Source: Pyxidicoccus parkwaysis
GTDB taxonomy: Bacteria; Myxococcota; Myxococcia; Myxococcales; Myxococcaceae
Length of the DNA stretch: 64,000 nt
Direction of reading: 5' to 3'
Assembly: GCF_017301735.1 (NCBI RefSeq)
Contig: NZ_CP071090.1
Coordinates: forward strand, 744,001-808,000
Of this stretch, positions 14,739-57,062 are shown in pieces; position 1 is the stretch's first letter; every line of letters begins with the position of its first letter. The position numbers and the translations under genes are program-made. The notes beneath the pieces are model-generated. The model was not told where the DNA came from. It ran no database searches and saw only the letters and a program-made list of their open reading frames with translations.

Positions 14739-15521
14739 ATGGAAAAGCGCACCGACTGGTACGAGCACCCCGAGTACTACGAGGCCATCTTCGGCACCGA
14801 CACGGTGCGCGAGGTGGACTTCCTCCAGGCGCTCAGCAAGCGCCACGGCTCCGGCGGCAAGCAATGGCTGGAGCCCGCCTGCGGCGCCGGACGGCTGGTG
14901 GCCGAGGCCTCGAAGCGGGGCCTCCAGGTGGAGGGCTATGACATCTCCGAGGCGATGCTCGCGCATGCGCGCCGCCGCCTCACGCCCGCGCAGCGCCGCC
15001 GCGTGCGGCTGTCTCAGTCGCGCATGGAGGCCTTCTTCGAGCCGTCACTGGAGGGCCGCGTGGACCTGGCGCACTGCCTCGTCTCCACCTTCCGCTACCT
15101 GGACAGCGAGGCCGCCGCGCGCGAGCACCTCATCGGTACTCGGAGACTGTTGAAACCCGATGGCATCTACGTGCTGGGCTTCCACCTCACGGACTACGCG
15201 CGCACCACGCCGGAGCACGAGCGCTGGGTGGGCCACGTGGGGAAGGACAAGGTCGTCTGCAACACGCACGAGGGCCTGCCCGAGCGCCGCGCGCGCCGCT
15301 CCCCCATGCGCAACCGGCTGCGCGTCACGGGGCCGGGGAAGGACTGGCTCATCGAGACGACGTGGTTCTTCCGCACGTACAGCGGGCCCCAGGCCAGCAA
15401 GCTCTTCCGCGATGCGGGCCTGCGCGTGGCGGCCACGTACGACTTCGACTACGACCTGGAGTCGCCGGTGCTTCGCGGCAGCCGCCGCCTGGACCGTGTC
15501 TTCGTCCTCCAGCCGGCCTGA
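14739..15521 (+). CDS. Class I SAM-dependent methyltransferase
   Basis: 260 residues. Motif I is WLEPACGAGRLVAEA, followed by the acidic EGYDISEAML (SAM ribose) and VDLAHCLVSTFRYL (motif IV region), then a C-terminal beta sheet. The N-terminus DWYEHPEYYEAIFG is common in small-molecule and protein methyltransferases of this type. Substrate unknown. Start ATG 14739 is chosen where homology-like sequence begins; a ribosome site is not obvious (GGAGG lies 12-16 bases upstream). It converges with the TfuA gene, leaving only four bases between stops. Confidence 0.85.
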   Translation: MEKRTDWYEHPEYYEAIFGTDTVREVDFLQALSKRHGSGGKQWLEPACGAGRLVAEASKRGLQVEGYDISEAMLAHARRRLTPAQRRRVRLSQSRMEAFFEPSLEGRVDLAHCLVSTFRYLDSEAAAREHLIGTRRLLKPDGIYVLGFHLTDYARTTPEHERWVGHVGKDKVVCNTHEGLPERRARRSPMRNRLRVTGPGKDWLIETTWFFRTYSGPQASKLFRDAGLRVAATYDFDYDLESPVLRGSRRLDRVFVLQPA

Positions 15522-15525
15522 CGCT

Positions 15526-16881
15526 TCAGTCGCGCGCGTCGGCCTTGGCCAGCACGTAGCAGAGCTCGCGCAGCGCGGCCCTGCGCATGGAGTCCACGTC
15601 CGGAAAGCCGCCGTCGCTCGCGGCCCGGGCGAGGGACTCCGGCTTCTGCCGGCCCTGGCGCTCCTCGAAGTACCAGCGCCACAGGCTGTCCTCGGTGATG
15701 CCCACGTCCTCCAGCCGGGGCGTGGACATGCCCGCCGCCGACAGCACCCGCTCCTTGTCGCGGGCGCGCTCCAGCAAGTCCGAGTACTCGCCCGTCAGCC
15801 GCAGGTGGTCCGCGAGGTGCCGCAGCACGTCCGGCTCGAAGAGCGTCTCCACCCAGCGCACGTGGGACTCGTCGCGCAGCAGCCGGCCCAGGTCCTCCAC
15901 CTGCTGCTCCGCCTGCCAGCGCTCGAAGGCGTCCGGTGCCAGGCCCCGCTCCTGGAGCAGCGCCTCGGCGGTGGAGCGCAACTCTTCCTCGCCGGGCTCG
16001 CGCCGCAGCCGGCGGGCCTCCTCCACCGCCAGGGCCCGGGCCATGCTCGCGCGCCGGGCCGTTCCCAGCGCGCCGCGCAGGCGCAGCTCGTCCAGCAGTG
16101 ACTCGGGGGCCACGCCCTCCAGGGGCTTCGCGTTCCGGTGCAGCGGCAGCCGGCCCGCGCGGCGCCGCGCTTCCTCCCAGGCATCCGTGTGCTGGAAGGG
16201 GAAGCTCACCGTCTTCGGGAAGATGCCGACGGCCAGCCGCTCGCGCAGGGTGCGCAGCAGGGCCAGCGCGTCCGTCTTCTTCTGGTCCACACGGCCCGTC
16301 GGCAGCCAGGCCTCGAGCGCCTTGAGCTGCGAGGGCAGCACGCCCTCGCGCGCGCCTCGCGCCAGAATCACCGGCCACGCGCGCTCCACGTAGAAGAGCG
16401 ACTTGGCCACCCGCTCCAGCGTCGAGCGGGTGTCCTCGGTCACCACCTGCGAGAGCCACGCCGAGGACAGGGTGGCGCTGATGTTCACCATCGCCTCGGA
16501 CAGCGGGCGCCAGTCGTCCTCCGCGCCCGCGTGTGCCACCGCGACGTCGTCGTCGTCCTGGAACTCGCCGCGCAGGTAGGCCGAGAAGATTTCGCCCACG
16601 CCCTCCATGCCGAAGGGCTCCAATTCCGCCGCGCGGAGCGCGCCCATGCTGGAGGCGCCGAAGACGTGGATGCCCTCGGCCATGGCCCAGAGGATTTCCT
16701 TGTGCCACACCGCGGGCACGTGCTCGAAGAAGCCGTCGATGATGCCGATGGCCACCGGGTTCTCCCGCGCGGCCCGGTACACGTCGCCCTGCTGCACGGG
16801 CGGGAGGTAGACGGCGTCCAGCTCCGCGCGCGCTTCCTCCGGCCGCAGCGTGGGGCCGGTGAAGACGAACACCTTCCTCAT
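15526..16881 (-). CDS. TfuA-like protein, YcaO partner
   Basis: 451 residues. The first ~150 are a TfuA domain (VFVFTGPTLRPEEA, AIGIIDGFFEHVPAVWHKEI, GIHVFGASSMGALRAAEL, GVGEIFSAY). In characterised systems TfuA works with YcaO in thioamide formation on peptides or on methyl-coenzyme M reductase. The remaining ~300 residues are mostly alpha-helical, rich in Arg/Leu, and not recognised. ATG 16881 overlaps the YcaO stop by 4 bases (ATGA), so the pair is translationally coupled. Third gene of the 232-aa/YcaO/TfuA set. Confidence 0.85.
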   Translation of the reverse strand: MRKVFVFTGPTLRPEEARAELDAVYLPPVQQGDVYRAARENPVAIGIIDGFFEHVPAVWHKEILWAMAEGIHVFGASSMGALRAAELEPFGMEGVGEIFSAYLRGEFQDDDDVAVAHAGAEDDWRPLSEAMVNISATLSSAWLSQVVTEDTRSTLERVAKSLFYVERAWPVILARGAREGVLPSQLKALEAWLPTGRVDQKKTDALALLRTLRERLAVGIFPKTVSFPFQHTDAWEEARRRAGRLPLHRNAKPLEGVAPESLLDELRLRGALGTARRASMARALAVEEARRLRREPGEEELRSTAEALLQERGLAPDAFERWQAEQQVEDLGRLLRDESHVRWVETLFEPDVLRHLADHLRLTGEYSDLLERARDKERVLSAAGMSTPRLEDVGITEDSLWRWYFEERQGRQKPESLARAASDGGFPDVDSMRRAALRELCYVLAKADARD

Positions 16882-18149
16882 TCGTCGCGCCCCCGCATCA
16901 CCCGCTGCGCCCGCACGCCGGGCACGTAGCCCGGGGCCTCATGCGTGGGCTCCAGCCCCGGCACCACCACCCGCACCACGGGCACTCCCAGCTCCGGCTT
17001 CGTCAGGTCCACCGCCACCACCTGGGACAGCCCCGCCTCGCCCAGCTTCCCCAGCACCCACGCCAGGTCGTCCTCCAGCGTCTCGCCGTCGTACGTGGGC
17101 ACGTCCTGGAAGCGGCGCACGGGGGATTCCTCGCGCAGCCGCGCCCGCAGCCGCTCCGCCGCGACGCCGTCCTTCGCGGACTCGTAGGCCTTGCGGTGCA
17201 GGTCATCCCGCGCCCCGCTGATGCGCGTGAGCCGGCTCTGCGCCGCCTCCGTCAGCGCGCGCAGCAGCGCCACCTCGCGCGACGGGTGGCAGCCCATGCC
17301 GCTGGCCACCGCGACGGGGCGGAAGGCCTCCGGCTCGCGGTCGACGATGGAGCACGTGAAGGCGGGGACGCCCACGTCGCTCGTCGTCTCCCACGCGCCT
17401 ACCGCCACGCCCGCGCGCGCGTACTTCTCCAGCACCTCGCGGCAGGACTCGTCGTCCACCGAGCCCAAGTCCAGCCGCGTCTTCGCCTGGGCGCGAGGGC
17501 CGCGCGCATGCCACAGCGTGGTGGAGTCGCGCTCCACCACCTCGCACAGGCCGTGGAGCGTGGCCTCCACCACGTGGTTGCCGGAGGCCAGCCCGTTGCT
17601 GCTCATCAGGAACGCGCCGCTGCCGGTGGGCAGGGGCAGCGTGTAGTCCGTGTGCACGAGGTCGAAGGGCAGCCACAGCGTGGTGCCCTGCATCAGATTC
17701 ACGCCCTCCACCCACAGCATGCGCCAGTTGTCGTGGAACAGGCTCACCGACAGCCGGGGCAGGCCGGCCACGTCCACCACGGCCTCGCGGAAGCGCAGCT
17801 CGTTGTACGTGCCCAGCTTCAGCGGCAGGGAGATGTGCTCGGCGTGGTAGCCCTCCACCGACTCCATGAGTCCTGACGCCTTCGCCGCGTCCAGCGTCAG
17901 CCCCTTGCCCTGCGACACCGCGAGCGAGCGTGCGTTGGGCCGCGCCACCATGACGACGGGGATGCCGATGGTGTCCAGGCCGGTGACGTTGGCGATGCGG
18001 GTGATGCCCAGCGCCGGCATGAGCCGGCGCACGCGCTCCAGCGTCTGTTGTGGGGAGACCACCCGGTGCGTGCCGAGGCGGAAGCGCTTGGATGTACCGG
18101 CGGAGGAAGGGGCCGCTTCCGGTTCGCGGAGGGTGTTGCGAAGGGGCAT
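16878..18149 (-). CDS. YcaO-family ATP-dependent cyclodehydratase/thioamidase
   Basis: 423 residues; YcaO enzymes use ATP to activate amide bonds, making azolines or, with TfuA, thioamides. The ATP/Mg-binding signatures are visible as KASGLMESVEGYHAEH and LCEVVERDSTTLWH (ExxER). Other family stretches are SNGLASGNHVVEAT, GMGCHPSREVALLRAL and AQSRLTRISGARDD. The C-terminus (YVPGVRAQRVMRGRDE) lacks the PxPxP tail of azoline-forming members, which fits a TfuA-linked type. No E1-like or ocin-ThiF gene is nearby. Start ATG 18149 overlaps the upstream stop by one base (TGATG). Confidence 0.9.
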   Translation of the reverse strand: MPLRNTLREPEAAPSSAGTSKRFRLGTHRVVSPQQTLERVRRLMPALGITRIANVTGLDTIGIPVVMVARPNARSLAVSQGKGLTLDAAKASGLMESVEGYHAEHISLPLKLGTYNELRFREAVVDVAGLPRLSVSLFHDNWRMLWVEGVNLMQGTTLWLPFDLVHTDYTLPLPTGSGAFLMSSNGLASGNHVVEATLHGLCEVVERDSTTLWHARGPRAQAKTRLDLGSVDDESCREVLEKYARAGVAVGAWETTSDVGVPAFTCSIVDREPEAFRPVAVASGMGCHPSREVALLRALTEAAQSRLTRISGARDDLHRKAYESAKDGVAAERLRARLREESPVRRFQDVPTYDGETLEDDLAWVLGKLGEAGLSQVVAVDLTKPELGVPVVRVVVPGLEPTHEAPGYVPGVRAQRVMRGRDE

Positions 18150-18847
18150 CAGGACTTCCGAGACACGAAGGGTGAAGCGTCCTGCTCCTTCGCATCCAGT
18201 TTCTGATCAGGTGTATAGCTCAACAGGATGCTGTTGAGGTTGAGCAGGAAGCAGGTGACGGGCTCCGCGGGCGCTGAAGGCGCGAGGGAGGTCTGTCGCG
18301 GGGGCGCCTCAGAGCCGTCAAACCCGACTTCGCGGGGGATGTTGGCGACCACGGCCTCGTTCTTGATGAGCGGCAGGAGCGCCTTGGCGAGGTGCTTCAT
18401 GTCGTGGGGATGTTTGGGGTCGAAGGACTGCGCCTTCGTCCACATCTCGGTGGGCAGCCAGTAGACGCGGCCATCCGGCGCGTAGAGCAGCACGTCCGAC
18501 TCGTCCACATAGGCCTGGGCCACGGCCTTCAGCTCCCGGGGATGGTGGGCACCCTCGTGCAGCGAGGCGACCACCTCGGCGGCGTAGGCGCCAGGCTTGA
18601 TTCCCTTCACGTGGGCGACCTTCGCCGCGCGGTCGACCACGATTTCCACGTAAGCCTGGGGATGCTCCTTCACGGGGTTCCCGGCATGCGTCGGGAGGTG
18701 CACGAGGTCCGTCACGTTCTCCGGCACGTTCGGCGGGTCCTTCGGCACGCCCATCACTCGCAGCTCGACGTTGAAGCCTTCGAGGATGTTGACCTCTTGG
18801 GTCTGGAAGAAGAGATACACGTACTCCTTCGGGTGCTTCGAAGCCAT
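18149..18847 (-). CDS. Unrecognised 232-residue protein leading the YcaO-TfuA operon
   Basis: 232 residues from ATG 18847 to a stop sharing one base with the YcaO start. No known domain recognised. The body is soluble, with His/Pro-rich stretches (HLPTHAGNPVKEHPQ, SFDPKHPHDMKHLAKALL) and WLPTEMWTKA. The last ~45 residues look different: a Ser/Ala/Pro linker (TSLAPSAPAEP), then VTCFLLNLNSILLSYTPD with the only Cys of the protein, then a charged end. Given coupling to YcaO, it could be the modified substrate, a recognition partner or a protein whose C-terminal segment is modified. That is inference from context only. A longer frame to 19042 is rejected because it runs into the kinase gene. Confidence 0.75.
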   Translation of the reverse strand: MASKHPKEYVYLFFQTQEVNILEGFNVELRVMGVPKDPPNVPENVTDLVHLPTHAGNPVKEHPQAYVEIVVDRAAKVAHVKGIKPGAYAAEVVASLHEGAHHPRELKAVAQAYVDESDVLLYAPDGRVYWLPTEMWTKAQSFDPKHPHDMKHLAKALLPLIKNEAVVANIPREVGFDGSEAPPRQTSLAPSAPAEPVTCFLLNLNSILLSYTPDQKLDAKEQDASPFVSRKS

Positions 18848-18887
18848 GCGAACCTCGATGGTAGGGTGAACGTCGGATGCGACCGCG

Positions 18888-22562: not shown

Positions 22563-22590
22563 CGCGGAAGGAGGGGCCGCTCCTTCCGCG
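22563..22590 (+). terminator. Perfect 11-bp hairpin in the leader of the sigma54-activator gene
   Basis: CGCGGAAGGAG, loop GGGCCG, CTCCTTCCGCG, followed by TTCTTCATCT. It could be a terminator/attenuator in the leader or the end of a short transcript. It lies 92 bases before the chosen ATG 22683. Confidence 0.45.
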
Positions 22591-22682
22591 TTCTTCATCT
22601 CCATCTCCGCTACACTTCGTCTCTCTTCCGACGCGGCCCTGGGGGGTTGCTTCGGATGCTGGTCCCGGACGGAGGCGTGTGG

Positions 22683-24407
22683 ATGCATGACGAGATGGCG
22701 CAGTTGCTGACCGCATTGCGGGCGGCAAAGGACTTCGAGACCGCCGCGGCGGCCACCCTGCGCCGGATGTTGGCCATGGCCCAGGAAGCGGTTGCGTCCA
22801 GTCGGTACGCAGCCCGGGCCCGTGTCCTCCGCGGAATCGTCCACCTTCGCCCCGGCGAGGCCTACCGCCGCCTGGCCGCGCTGGATGTGGGCGCCTCGGA
22901 GATTACGGACGCAAGTGTGGGCACGCCCTTCTTCACCTCCGCCACGGCATGGCGTGCGGTGGTGGAGCACCGGTGCGCGGTGTCCATCGACGTCAACGTA
23001 GGCACGGTGCAGCCGCACGCGCCCAACGCCCCGGTGACGGGCGACCCGGGGCTGGCGGGCTTCCACAGCAACGAGAGCCGGCAGCGCTTCCTCGGGCGCC
23101 ACGCCACGCACGTGTGCGTGCTGCCGCTGCGCACGCCGGGCGGCAGCATCGAGGGGATGATTTCCCTGGAGGCGGACTGCCTCGCCGCCATGGGCCAGGA
23201 GTTCGTCTGGCTGTCGGTGGGGGACAAGCTGCAGCTGCTCGCGGACGTCGCCGCGCCGTACCTGGCCGGACTGCCGCAGCGCCCGGTGGCCACGCCGGAG
23301 GTGGACGAGTTCCTCCCGGTGGTGGGCCGCTCCATGGCGGAGTTGCTGCCCATCCTCCGCGTCTTCGCGCTGCAGGATGAGACCATCCTCATCAGCGGCG
23401 CCACCGGCGCGGGCAAGTCGCGGCTGGCGCGCTGGTGCCACGAGCGCTCCAACCGCCGGGGCAAGCCCTTCGAGACGTTGGACCTGGTGACGGTGCCCGA
23501 GGACCTCCAGATGGCGGAGCTCTTCGGCTGGAAGAAGGGCGCCTTCACGGGCGCGGTGCGCGACGCGCCGGGCAGTGTGGCGCGCGCGGACGGCGGCACG
23601 CTGTTCATCGACGAAATCGACAAGCTGTCGCTGAAGGCGCAGGCGGGCCTGCTGCACCTGCTGGAGTCGCGCAGCTACCGGCCGCTGGGCGAGGGCACCG
23701 GTGAGCGTCAGGCGGACGTGCGCTTCATCATCGGCACCAACGCGGACCTGCACGCGGAGGTGCGCGCGGGCCGCTTCCGCGAGGACCTCTACTACCGCGT
23801 CAACGTGCTGCCGGTGCGCATGCCCGCGCTGCAGGAGCGCACGGACGAAATCCCGATGTGGGCGCGGTACATGGTGAGCCGCCGCCACCGCGAGCGCTCG
23901 CCCGAGGGCACCGCGCGGCTGACGCCCGAAGCGGAGCGGCTGCTCGTGGGCGGGAGCTGGCCGGGCAACCTGCGGCAGCTCGACAACATCGTCCGCCGCG
24001 CCTACACGCTGGCCATGGTGGAGCAGACCACGCCCTCCGGGGAGCTGGTGCTGCAGGACAAGCACGTGGCGCGGGCGCTCGACTACGAGCAGGTGCCGGG
24101 TAACAAGCCGCTGCCCGAGGCGCTGCGCGCGGCCGCGCAGGCCTTCGTCGCCGAGGCGCGCAAGCGCAATGCGCCGCTGGATTTGGACCTCGCGGATGCG
24201 TTCCGAGGATTGGTGCTGGGCATGGCCATCCGCCAGGTGGGCCGCGACGAGGGCTTCCGTCTGCTGGGCCGCGAGAGCCTGGTGAAGAACCGCAACCACC
24301 ACAAGGCGCTCAAGCGCGAGTTGGAGAAGGTGGAGGCGCTCTACAAGGCGCTGGGCGAGGACGCGTCGCCCTTCGCCGACCTGCTGTCGGAGGACGAGGC
24401 GGCCTGA
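22683..24407 (+). CDS. Sigma54-dependent transcriptional activator
   Basis: 574 residues. ATG 22683 has GGAGG at the right spacing; ATG 22656 is possible. N-terminal ~200 residues look GAF-like (WRAVVEHRCAVSIDVN, GGSIEGMISLEADC). The AAA+ core has Walker A ISGATGAGKSRLAR, the sigma54-contact loop KKGAFTGAVRDAPG, and Walker B GGTLFIDEIDKL, then FREDLYYRVNVLPVRMP and SWPGNLRQLDN. The C-terminus carries an unusual, degenerate Fis-type helix-turn-helix (GFRLLGRESLVKNRNHHKAL). This is a GAF-type activator rather than a two-component regulator. Target promoters unknown. Convergent with the haem-oxygenase-like gene. Confidence 0.9.
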   Translation: MHDEMAQLLTALRAAKDFETAAAATLRRMLAMAQEAVASSRYAARARVLRGIVHLRPGEAYRRLAALDVGASEITDASVGTPFFTSATAWRAVVEHRCAVSIDVNVGTVQPHAPNAPVTGDPGLAGFHSNESRQRFLGRHATHVCVLPLRTPGGSIEGMISLEADCLAAMGQEFVWLSVGDKLQLLADVAAPYLAGLPQRPVATPEVDEFLPVVGRSMAELLPILRVFALQDETILISGATGAGKSRLARWCHERSNRRGKPFETLDLVTVPEDLQMAELFGWKKGAFTGAVRDAPGSVARADGGTLFIDEIDKLSLKAQAGLLHLLESRSYRPLGEGTGERQADVRFIIGTNADLHAEVRAGRFREDLYYRVNVLPVRMPALQERTDEIPMWARYMVSRRHRERSPEGTARLTPEAERLLVGGSWPGNLRQLDNIVRRAYTLAMVEQTTPSGELVLQDKHVARALDYEQVPGNKPLPEALRAAAQAFVAEARKRNAPLDLDLADAFRGLVLGMAIRQVGRDEGFRLLGRESLVKNRNHHKALKRELEKVEALYKALGEDASPFADLLSEDEAA

Positions 24408-54033: not shown

Positions 54034-55016
54034 TGCGGCTTCTTCCCGTGCTGGCCCTCCTGCTGGTGGGCGTCCCCGCGCTGGCGCAGCAGCAGCCTCC
54101 CGGCGCTCCCGCGAACGAGACGGTGCAGCCGCAGGACGTCTCCGCGCGCGTGGACCCGAAGCAGGTGCGCATCGGCGACCCGTTCCTCTACGAAGTCGTC
54201 ATCACCCACCCGAAGGACCACCGCTACGAACTGGTGCTGCCCAAGGAGACGGGCGACATCGAGGTGCTGGACCAGACGCGCCAGCGCAAGGACGGCACGG
54301 ACACGGCCACCACCACGTTCGGCGTGCGCATGTCCGCCTTCGCGCTGGGCATGGTGCAACTGCCGGCGCTGAGCTTCGACGTGGCGACGCCGGAGGGCCC
54401 GAAGAAGTTCTCCCTCCCGGGCCGCGAGGTGGAGGTGACGTCCACGCTGCCGCCGGACGCGGACGGGAAGGGCGCGGACCTCTTCGACTACCAGCCGCCG
54501 CAGGAGGTGCCCATCCGCTCGTGGCGGCTGGTGCTGGCGCTGCTCGTCGTCCTGGGCCTGTCCCTGCTGTCGTTTCTGCTGTACCGCTGGTGGTCCAACC
54601 GGCCCAAGCGCGAGGTGGTGGTGCCGGTGCTGCCCCTGGACGTGCGCACGCGCAAGGCGCTGGACACGCTCAAGGCGGAGGACCTGCCCTCGCGCGGCCA
54701 CGTGAAGGACTTCTACTTCCGGCTGTCTGAAATCATCCGTGGCTACCTCGGCGAGCGCTACGGCTTCGAGGCGCTGGAGTGCACCAGCTCCGAGCTGATG
54801 GCGTCGCTGCGCCGCCTGCATGCGCCCGGTCTCCCCGAGGACGCGCTGATGCGCTTCGTGTCCGAGTCGGACATGGTGAAGTACGCGCGCGCGGACTCGA
54901 CACCGGAGTCGTGCCGCGACGCGCTGGCCTTCGGCTACACGCTCATCGAGAAGACATACATCCCGCCCCCGCCGCCCCAGGCTTCCGCCAATGCCGCCGC
55001 TCCCCACGTTCAATAA
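54033..55016 (+). CDS. Membrane protein with BatD-like extracytoplasmic domain
   Basis: 327 residues from ATG 54033, sharing its A with the previous stop; GTG 54030 is an alternative. Signal peptide (LPVLALLLVGVPALAQ), extracytoplasmic beta domain (VRIGDPFLYEVVITHPKDHR, LGMVQLPALSFDVATPEGPK), one membrane helix (LVLALLVVLGLSLLSFLLY), then a cytoplasmic helical tail (KDFYFRLSEIIRGYLGERYG) that the C-terminus of the later BatD also resembles. I assign it as a small BatD paralogue, fused here to the front of batA (26-base overlap). Confidence 0.75.
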   Translation: MRLLPVLALLLVGVPALAQQQPPGAPANETVQPQDVSARVDPKQVRIGDPFLYEVVITHPKDHRYELVLPKETGDIEVLDQTRQRKDGTDTATTTFGVRMSAFALGMVQLPALSFDVATPEGPKKFSLPGREVEVTSTLPPDADGKGADLFDYQPPQEVPIRSWRLVLALLVVLGLSLLSFLLYRWWSNRPKREVVVPVLPLDVRTRKALDTLKAEDLPSRGHVKDFYFRLSEIIRGYLGERYGFEALECTSSELMASLRRLHAPGLPEDALMRFVSESDMVKYARADSTPESCRDALAFGYTLIEKTYIPPPPPQASANAAAPHVQ

Positions 55017-56001
55017 CCCGGAGGCGCTCTGGGGGCTGCTGCTCGTGCCGCTGCTGCTGGTGCAGGCATGGCGGGAGCGGCGCGCCCGCGCCACGCTGCG
55101 CTTCTCCGCCGCGCACGTCTTCGCCCGCAACGGCAAGGGCCTGCGCACGTACCTCCTGCCGCTGCTGCCGCTGATTCGCGCGGTGGCGGTGGCCGCGGCC
55201 GTGCTCGCCATCGCCCGGCCCCAGGCGCGCGACTCGCGCGTGCGCGACTTGTCGGTGGAGGGCATCGACATCGTGGTGGCGCTGGACTTGTCCACCTCCA
55301 TGGAGGCCGGCGACTTCCGTCCGCAGAACCGCCTGCACGTGGCGAAGGAAGTGCTCAGCGAGTTCATCGCCAACCGCGTGAATGACCGCATCGGCCTGGT
55401 GGTGTTCGCGGGCGCGGCCTACACGCAGGCGCCGCTGACGCTGGACTACGGCGTGCTGAAGGAGGTCATCAAGCAGCTGCGCACGCGCGTGCTGGAGGAC
55501 GGCACGGCCATTGGTGACGCGTTGGCCACGTCGCTCAACCGCCTGCGCGACTCGGAGGCGAAGAGCCGCGTGGTGGTGCTGATTACGGATGGCGACAACA
55601 ACGCCGGGAAGATTTCGCCCATGGACGCGGCCAACATGGCCCAGGCGCTGAAGGTGCCCATCTACACGATTCTGGTGGGCAAGGGCGGCAAGGTGCCCTT
55701 CCCGCAGGGCACCGACTTGTTCGGCAACACCGTGTGGCGCGAGACGGAAATTCCCATCAACCCGGAGCTGATGCAGGACATCGCGGACCGCACCGGCGGC
55801 GAGTACTACCGCGCCACGGACCCCGAGGGCCTGCGCGCGGGCCTGCAGAAGGTGCTCGACTCGCTGGAGCGCTCGAAACTGATGGAGGGCGGCGCCTCCG
55901 CCACCTACCGCGAGGAGTTCCATCCGTTCCTGCTGGCCGCCTTCGGCCTCGCCGCGCTGGAGCTGCTCCTGCGCGCATCCTTCCTGAGGGTCTTCCCGTG
56001 A
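54991..56001 (+). CDS. batA: BatA: VWA-domain membrane protein
   Basis: 336 residues. N-terminal membrane helix (LWGLLLVPLLLVQAW), a second near 60, VWA domain with MIDAS VALDLSTSMEAGDF (DxSxS), RIGLVVFAGAAYTQAPLT and VVVLITDGDNNAGK, and a C-terminal helix (LLAAFGLAALELLLRA). Thought to assemble with BatB in the inner membrane and to be acted on by MoxR. The previous gene overlaps by 26 bases; the next start overlaps by 4 (GTGA). Confidence 0.92.
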   Translation: MPPLPTFNNPEALWGLLLVPLLLVQAWRERRARATLRFSAAHVFARNGKGLRTYLLPLLPLIRAVAVAAAVLAIARPQARDSRVRDLSVEGIDIVVALDLSTSMEAGDFRPQNRLHVAKEVLSEFIANRVNDRIGLVVFAGAAYTQAPLTLDYGVLKEVIKQLRTRVLEDGTAIGDALATSLNRLRDSEAKSRVVVLITDGDNNAGKISPMDAANMAQALKVPIYTILVGKGGKVPFPQGTDLFGNTVWRETEIPINPELMQDIADRTGGEYYRATDPEGLRAGLQKVLDSLERSKLMEGGASATYREEFHPFLLAAFGLAALELLLRASFLRVFP

Positions 56002-57062
56002 CGCCGCCCGTGGAACCCTGGCGCTTCACCGTGCTCGGCTACCAGGCGGGGCTCGCCCAGCCGCTCTACCTGTTGCTGGTGCTGGTGGGCGTGCTGCTGG
56101 GCTCGCTCGCGTTGGTGGGGGCGCTGCGCCGCCGCTCGCGCGTGCGCGCGTTCCTGAATGAGCGCCACGCGGAGCGCTTCACGCCGGGCGTCTCGGTGTG
56201 GAGGCCGGCGGTGCAGGGCGGCATGTACGGTCTGGGGCTGGCGCTGTTCGGCTTCGCGCTGGCGCAGCCGCAGTGTGGCACCAAGAGCGAGCTGACCAAG
56301 CGCCGCGGCATCGACGTGGTGGTGGCGCTGGACGCGTCCAAGTCCATGCTCGCGCGCGACATCCAGCCCAGCCGTCTGGAGCGCGCGAAGCTGGAGCTCA
56401 CCACGCTGCTGGACGAGTTGAAGGGCGACCGCGTGGGCCTGGTGGTGTTCGCGGGCGACGCGTTCATCCAGTCGCCGCTGACGTCGGACTACTCGGCGGT
56501 GAAGCTGTTCCTGCGCGCGGTGGACCCGGAAATCATGCCCCAGGGTGGCACCAACGTGGGCGCGGCGCTGAAGCTGGCCAAGCAGGTGCTGGACAACGCG
56601 GACCGCGGCTCGAAGGAGCGCGTGGTGGTGCTGCTGTCCGACGGCGAGGACCTCTTCGGCGAGGTGTCCGAGGCCACCGAGGCGCTGAAGGAGGCCAACG
56701 TCCAGGTGCTGACGGTGGGCGTGGGCTCGGAGTCCGGCGAGCCGATTCCCGTCTATGACAGGCGCGGCGAGTTCGTGGACTACAAGAAGGACGCGAACGG
56801 GGAGACGGTGATTACGCGCCTGGACCGCGCGGGCCTGACGGCCATCGCCGAGGGCTCCGGCGGCGCCTTCTTCTACCAGCCGCGCGGCGTGGCCATGGCG
56901 CAGGTGGTGGAGCGCATCGACCAGATGCAGAAGAGTGAGCTGGAGAGCCGGGTGACGGTCCGCTACGACGAGCGCTTCCAGTCCTTCGCCATTCCGGGGC
57001 TGGCGCTGCTCGCGCTGGGCATGTTGCTCCTGCCGTCCTCGCGCCGGAGGTCGTCGACGTGA
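55998..57062 (+). CDS. batB: BatB: VWA-domain membrane protein
   Basis: 354 residues from GTG 55998 (GTGA overlap with batA). N-terminal helices (LYLLLVLVGVLLGSLALVGA, GGMYGLGLALFGFALAQ), VWA with MIDAS VVALDASKSMLARDI, RVGLVVFAGDAFIQSPLT and VVVLLSDGEDLFGE, and a final helix (IPGLALLALGMLLLP). Sister of BatA by duplication. Next gene starts in the overlap (GTGA). Confidence 0.92.
   Translation: MTPPVEPWRFTVLGYQAGLAQPLYLLLVLVGVLLGSLALVGALRRRSRVRAFLNERHAERFTPGVSVWRPAVQGGMYGLGLALFGFALAQPQCGTKSELTKRRGIDVVVALDASKSMLARDIQPSRLERAKLELTTLLDELKGDRVGLVVFAGDAFIQSPLTSDYSAVKLFLRAVDPEIMPQGGTNVGAALKLAKQVLDNADRGSKERVVVLLSDGEDLFGEVSEATEALKEANVQVLTVGVGSESGEPIPVYDRRGEFVDYKKDANGETVITRLDRAGLTAIAEGSGGAFFYQPRGVAMAQVVERIDQMQKSELESRVTVRYDERFQSFAIPGLALLALGMLLLPSSRRRSST

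Follow-up and report, generated by a model that had tools for sequence, protein, structure and literature searches.

What does a YcaO-TfuA enzyme pair act on when its operon holds no gene for a short precursor peptide? This question is raised by a locus of the myxobacterium Pyxidicoccus parkwaysis, which lies in a stretch of 64,000 nucleotides (contig NZ_CP071090.1, positions 744,001 to 808,000; the window in the following) and in which the genes for YcaO and TfuA follow a gene for a protein of 232 amino acids (aa), here called the lead. The original prediction offered two roles for the lead, that of a large substrate modified in its C-terminal segment and that of a recognition subunit of the enzymes. 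A near-constant motif and a portable module now favor the former, and the subunit reading has lost ground. Judged from sequence comparison, it is rather probable that YcaO-TfuA act on the lead as their dedicated substrate and modify its tail near Cys199. The substrate reading is favored since the C-terminal motif is nearly constant in a fast-diverging protein, since the module recurs, portable and sometimes duplicated, in leads with different N-termini, and since a similar hairpin is found in short precursor-like peptides encoded before some related YcaOs.

No match to the lead was found in Pfam and NCBIfam up to E=1. Its layout comprises a putative immunoglobulin (Ig)-like domain (residues ~9-115), a DG-hairpin (~118-131), a short helical part, the stretch NEAVVANIP (163-171), a low-confidence linker and the tail. 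The AlphaFold2 model, built from a 16-row alignment, shows a mostly confident beta sandwich to about residue 115 and a less certain hairpin to residue 131; for residues 11-120 the predicted local distance difference test score (pLDDT) averages 62-90 per ten-residue block, mostly in beta strands. Residues 163-232 have a pLDDT below 50, which bears out the earlier remark that the C-terminal part differs in character from the rest, and the single Cys of the protein, C199, is located there, as had been noted. In a Foldseek search with the lead model the best matches were bacterial Ig-like domains of LigA (8gyr, E 1.1e-5, template modelling (TM) scores 0.34/0.42), with LigB (2mog, TM 0.33/0.70) lower in the list and many antibody-like chains in between. 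The TM scores are modest, and the Pfam Ig-like model gave no match in the window lead. The tail is tentatively predicted to be disordered.

The conservation of the tail stands out within this protein. The pattern TCFLLNLNSIxxSYxP is present in 17/17 lead orthologues, and among the 16 that were aligned 13 of 16 tail positions are invariant, compared with 19 of the 216 positions outside it (p 2e-10 by Fisher's test, for a stretch picked after being seen); the linker before it (residues 172-197) has zero invariant positions in this 16-row alignment. The other aligned leads are 31-62% identical to that of the window; for the other proteins, the eight loci compared gave identities of 66-90% (YcaO), 64-85% (TfuA) and 67-92% (kinase domain of the neighboring protein described below). 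The tail codons are also unusually constant: Thr198 ACC, Leu204 CTC, and AGC for both Ser206 and Ser210 were found in 16/16 orthologues, and these are minority codons in the neighboring genes; outside the tail, Leu120 and Ala168 have codons that are nearly or fully as constant. A DNA-level element underlying the tail was considered and rejected, the codon constancy being seen in orthologues and missing in paralogous modules.

A search of 100 genomes found the lead in 15, and every one of these belongs to the 27 genomes of the window's genus. Within these 27 it is present in 15/15 genomes in which the best TfuA shares 68-100% identity with that of the window and in 0/12 in which this value is only 37-43%. 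Two more orthologues (L073, L074) belong to two other genera of the family. A scan of contigs with patterns specific to the window lead matched 57 stretches, of which 4 were confirmed, all from Myxococcus or Pyxidicoccus. The 27 genomes were also searched for further copies of the tail motif, and this idea was discarded, since each of the 15 lead-bearing genomes gave a single strong match and every other match had E >1. Three weak tail matches (G000, G022, G026) adjoined TfuA paralogues and pointed to a wider family of leads.

Indeed, many leads at other YcaO-TfuA loci differ in their N-termini and have a hairpin-plus-tail module in common, which reads D-L-[LV]-[IV]-[FY]-x-x-D-G-x-x-Y-x-[VL] or similar; after it come a short helical segment, V-V-A-[DN]-I-P and a tail of the type C-[FY]-[LV]-[LV]-[ND]-L, in its broader form Cys-x-[LV]-x-[ND]-[LM]. 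Eight loci encode two modules per chain (L075, L076, L078, L081, L082, L083, L087, L088). When 17 modules are aligned, the Cys column alone is invariant; in a 21-slice module alignment, 20 rows have the Cys and 7 of these have CxC. These leads were collected from 40 regions fetched around TfuAs of the phylum, for most of which the genes upstream of YcaO were read, genes being called by a crude open reading frame filter. An earlier module profile was made by hand from the 21 slices, mostly of loci that were then searched with it; the loci matched that had contributed no slice included L053, L072, L081, L082, L083 and L086, with L053 and L086 weak (E ~0.001). The lead of L086 has 455 aa; that of L077, which adjoins a transposase-like open reading frame, escaped the profile and was recognized when the frame was read. 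The profile A4, made of 17 modules from leads seen beside YcaO-TfuA and applied to at most 28 scored candidates per genome, gave among the matches listed 40 module copies in 26 of 195 Myxococcota genomes, all in one family; it missed weak leads seen otherwise, e.g., L053, L077 and L086. Among these same matches, 39 of the 40 copies lie no more than 5 kb from a TfuA on the same contig, and the 40th (G025) lies at a contig end with a kinase on its other side. The homologue search proposed at the outset thus found leads beside YcaO-TfuA with a conserved C-terminal motif and, within the range of close relatives, no tendency of homologues to occur mostly without these enzymes. As a separate observation, a protein of the F14 family is encoded near five paired-module cassettes (L076, L080, L081, L082, L087) and is NmrA-like and NAD(P)-binding in L076.

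Some related YcaOs are preceded by short leads of ~65-90 aa with a similar hairpin, seen as a DG-x-x-Y match. That of L079 has 91 aa (MKELQIVGDDGQVYRM...), those of L084 and L085 have ~80 aa when read from an internal start (MKELQVVGEDGRLYRV...Pro-rich...), and that of Azospirillum lipoferum has 65 aa and contains ...RGADGRLYNV...; a frame with IRAADGRLYTL occurs in Indioceanicola, and the second half of a peptide of Azospirillum brasilense resembles the short lead of A. lipoferum. In appearance these short leads are ordinary precursors with a leader, and their hairpin is similar, which is an argument for counting the large leads among the substrates as well.

The original prediction described an operon of lead, YcaO and TfuA. 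These three genes are arranged as stated, with one base (18149) common to lead and YcaO and four (16878-16881) to YcaO and TfuA; a fourth gene had been left out, however, which encodes a kinase-AAA_16-TPR protein directly upstream of the lead with a gap of 40 bases (18848-18887). At 23 other loci the YcaO reaches at least 54% identity with that of the window, and 19 of these loci encode this kinase (47-61% identity). The set of 23 was drawn from the 40 fetched regions, leaving aside L051, whose contig ends inside YcaO, and the six window-genus orthologues L063-L068; L073 and L074, which it includes, are orthologues from other genera. All 19 kinase loci have a lead whose tail holds at least one Cys (18 recognized by profile, L077 by reading), and none of the four loci without the kinase (L052, L079, L084, L085) has such a lead. 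The kinase is on the YcaO strand in 19/19 loci, before YcaO in 16 and after it in 3 (L081-L083); where it comes before, the gap measures 0.7-1.4 kb in 10 loci and 1.9-3.2 kb in 6. At L084 and L085 a different large protein was grouped with the kinases by loose clustering. At L079 (4264-8433), an AAA_16-TPR protein encoded upstream of the short lead has a guanylate/adenylate cyclase domain instead of the kinase. In the window's own genome, 14 places match the C-terminal 853 residues of the kinase (the AAA-TPR part) at E <=1e-10; apart from the kinase itself, one of them extends over most of this part (51%, 747 bits), the next reaching 125 bits, and this 747-bit relative belongs to a second such operon at ~7.28 Mb, where it precedes a 351-aa lead ending in ITCYLLNLPGTTTTGST.

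Moreover, the four genes are gained and lost as a block. In 8 of the 12 same-genus genomes without the lead the cassette's absence was tested; in seven of these eight the matches to the flanking methyltransferase and sigma-54 activator are ~320-430 bases apart with no match to any of the four genes. With the flanking genes as neighbors where the lead is missing, it follows that kinase, lead, YcaO and TfuA come and go together. The eighth genome (G016) has a gap of ~2.2 kb that holds broken kinase pieces only (contig C50, ~54326-56514; L127, L136), and these fragments, with lead, YcaO and TfuA gone, speak for loss rather than only gain. On this comparative evidence the unit is a four-gene cassette, kinase-lead-YcaO-TfuA, found in some soil myxobacteria; its YcaO-TfuA pair apparently serves a single protein, the putatively Ig-like lead, and acts on the tail of it. 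No protease, transporter or further tailoring enzyme is encoded in the four-gene unit as defined by comparison with the empty sites. The coordinates of the cassette, its proposed functional elements and its flanking genes are collected in Table 1.

Table 1. Features of the YcaO-TfuA locus in the window (positions in the 64,000-nucleotide stretch).
Feature	Position	Strand	Remarks
Ser/Thr kinase - AAA_16 ATPase - TPR protein, 1152 aa	18888..22346	minus	first gene of the cassette; Pfam
Lead gene, 232 aa	18149..18847	minus	no Pfam or NCBIfam match up to E=1; a single Cys (C199)
Hairpin DVLLYAPDGRVYWL (residues 118-131)	18455..18496	minus	proposed recognition element; common to module family
Tail motif TCFLLNLNSILLSYTP, 16 residues (198-213)	18209..18256	minus	proposed substrate site; 17/17 orthologues
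YcaO, 423 aa	16878..18149	minus	PF02624 3.8e-87; closest in PDB 6pe3 (M. jannaschii MJ1094) 3.8e-43
TfuA, 451 aa	15526..16881	minus	PF07812 1.4e-45; PDB 6xp8 1.2e-34 over residues 4-214
Sigma-54 activator, divergent (assumed start codon)	22656..24407	plus	flanking gene, outside cassette
Methyltransferase	14739..15521	plus	flanking gene, outside cassette

A separate short precursor gene can be rejected for the gaps of the operon strand: the 40 bases before the lead and the 4 bases (15522-15525) between TfuA and the methyltransferase leave little room, in agreement with the original prediction, a statement that excepts the ~300 bases upstream of the kinase and overlapping or antisense frames. 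The methyltransferase was rejected as a member of the unit because it is kept in 8/8 searched genomes without the lead, and it scores below the daptide cut-off. The sigma-54 activator is likewise kept in genomes without the cassette; since relatives of it are encoded beside cassettes elsewhere (L073, L074, L077, L086), it may be the cassette regulator. A scan of the locus for promoters and terminators came back empty. Upstream of the sigma-54 gene, a perfect inverted repeat (GCGGAAGGAGGGGCCGCTCCTTCCGC, window 22564-22589) was observed, the core of which recurs at 6/6 checked cassette-bearing orthologue loci and in 8/8 checked genomes without an intact cassette, and was not found at L073, L074, L077 and L086. 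A role in anti-phage defence was also considered and dropped: among the best 25 of 31 kinase matches, the kinase and the sigma-54 gene match generic kinase and RtcR-like AAA models, and the defence models gave no match to lead, YcaO or TfuA.

With regard to chemistry, the family assignment and the 4-base overlap identify a YcaO protein encoded next to a TfuA domain protein. The best NCBIfam match of the YcaO is the McrA-thioamidation model TIGR03266 (254 bits, cut-off 365), and the only one of TfuA is the McrA-thioamidation model NF033432 (215.3 bits, cut-off 235.2); as both are below the cut-offs, the two proteins are relatives of the McrA-thioamidation pair and not members of it. The YcaO is above the cut-off of the general YcaO-type kinase domain TIGR00702 (214.9 versus 75.65). 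Azoline-forming YcaO cyclodehydratases are recognized by a C-terminal PxPxP; the YcaO of the window, which ends in ...VPGVRAQRVMRGRDE, lacks it, as had been noticed before. Passages of the survey of Malit (2021, PMC8120280) describe Met, His and Ala as the preferred residues in three ATP motifs of TfuA-associated YcaOs, and all three are present here (SGLMESVE, EATLHGLCE and ALTEAAQSR, matched by eye with our own position mapping). Family match, preferred ATP-motif residues and the missing PxPxP together speak, at the level of the enzyme family, for thioamidation rather than azoline formation, so that the chemistry of the pair points to thioamidation, with a thiazoline as a possible outcome that is weighed below.

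Two side observations concern the TfuAs. That of the window has a C-terminal extension of ~240 residues beyond the TfuA domain, which the TfuAs of ~250-280 aa in the cassettes of L050, L070, L071, L072 and L089 do not have. The window's own genome also encodes a distant TfuA (G000:C1:6782819-6783742, L059; 39% identical) together with a YcaO 33.5% identical to that of the window, and TfuAs about as distant are present in many of the Myxococcaceae searched; neither L058 nor L059 showed a lead with the hairpin.

We infer the following course of events. The DG-hairpin of the lead would dock the enzymes in the manner of a leader, and the flexible tail TCFLLNLNSIxxSYxP would enter the active site of YcaO. 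A backbone amide in or next to Cys-Phe-Leu-Leu-Asn-Leu would then be activated by ATP and thioamidated with the assistance of TfuA. The putative N-terminal Ig-like domain would be an interchangeable binding part, and the kinase-AAA-TPR protein could be the system's own signalling partner, exerting control over it or phosphorylating one of its components. Conceivably, this amounts to signal-controlled thioamidation, in which the kinase-ATPase senses a cue, the Ig-like protein stays whole and the tail is a portable substrate tag, fused to many proteins of the Myxococcaceae and to some of them in tandem; as a complete picture we regard it as a tentative proposal that may well prove wrong.

Several observations weigh against the assignment of the lead as substrate. 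A conserved tail peptide could also be a docking motif. The Cys is not universal: module 1 of L078 carries Tyr in its place, module 2 of L081 is without it, and module 2 of both L082 and L083 has it one position away; each of these modules is accompanied by a Cys-bearing copy. At L081-L083 TfuA is followed by the kinase and then by the lead, which thus lies several kb downstream of YcaO. Among the short leads, the strict hairpin pattern is present in only 2 of 6 alphaproteobacterial loci, and the looser one also matches unrelated reading frames. Owing to the origin of the A4 profile and the limit on candidates per genome, distant orphan modules could have been missed. The description of the tail as disordered is tentative, since both structure models come from 16-row alignments and that of the module is of low confidence (mean pLDDT 65).

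The lead might instead be a very large precursor of a ribosomally synthesized and post-translationally modified peptide (RiPP); a protease from another locus would then cleave off the modified tail, which would be set free as a peptide. The hairpin of the short leads would suit such a precursor and the long linker could be cut, but the unit that comes and goes includes neither protease nor transporter, the first motif of tandem leads is internal, and a conserved cut site in the linker was not seen by eye; we therefore regard a released peptide as unlikely. Alternatively, the lead might be a recognition or activating subunit of YcaO-TfuA, with the tail docking the enzymes and another protein as the true substrate. 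Close co-occurrence with YcaO-TfuA would be expected of such a subunit, and docking motifs do look like conserved peptides, yet the lead diverges much faster than its would-be partners, its N-terminus varies by locus and the module is duplicated within one chain, which makes this role quite improbable.

A third possibility, compatible with the lead as substrate, concerns the product, since YcaO might form a thiazoline at Cys199 with loss of water instead of a thioamide. The invariant Cys of the 17-row alignment and the recurrent CxC are what such a reaction would predict, but the TfuA partner, the missing PxPxP and MJ1094 as the closest solved relative argue for the other chemistry. This outcome, at first judged unlikely, has been lowered to quite improbable because two modules lack the Cys and a further two have it displaced. 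Finally, the cassette could be a chance association of ordinary neighbors, a notion fed by the 14 AAA-TPR matches in the own genome, which tell that such proteins are not rare. However, no more than two of the 14 show an extended match, and each of these two belongs to such an operon; the genes are absent as a block with kinase remains in one genome, and 39 of 40 modules among the matches listed lie beside a TfuA, so that chance association is already contradicted by the present results and hardly credible.

If the favored assignment of the lead as substrate is true, thioamidation, so far seen in peptides and two housekeeping proteins, would also operate in a dedicated protein system that is linked to a kinase and has large, modular, operon-encoded substrates with a portable C-terminal site. 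With their one short motif, the leads would then constitute a natural set of substrates on which the choice of site by YcaO-TfuA could be studied.

Among known systems, TOMM kinase/cyclase fusion proteins (TIGR03903) are encoded beside a YcaO system. The cassette resembles them in the combination of a kinase with an ATPase-like region beside a YcaO system; unlike them, the window kinase has no cyclase domain and scores 253.3 bits with their model, against a cut-off of 705.75. Thioamidated RiPPs and TfuA clusters, with Corallococcus named among the dominant cluster families in passages of the Malit survey (PMC8120280), likewise have a candidate precursor near adjacent ycaO and tfuA genes. In contrast to these, the lead has 232 residues and a folded domain and belongs to a unit without a transport or protease gene. 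Although its hairpin is leader-like and its tail core-like, it thus falls outside the definition of a short leader-plus-core RiPP precursor. The main text of that survey contains neither the term 'kinase' nor 'large precursor', and no description of a kinase-linked YcaO-TfuA arrangement was found in the open-access literature searched by titles and the beginnings of abstracts. In the literature consulted, enzymatic backbone thioamides were encountered in two proteins, McrA (PMC5589413) and the ribosomal protein uL16, which is thioamidated by YcaO of E. coli (PMC13063428). The uL16 system is similar in that a YcaO acts on a protein; it differs in that this protein is ribosomal and in that the abstract names YcaO alone, without TfuA. 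The McrA thioglycine system employs the same enzyme pair on a protein-sized substrate, as the cassette would on its candidate. Unlike the McrA system, the cassette is bacterial, its candidate substrate is encoded in the same operon and carries a C-terminal tail motif, and a kinase is attached. We rate the enzymes of the cassette as known, and the architecture of the candidate substrate and the proposed signalling partner as new.

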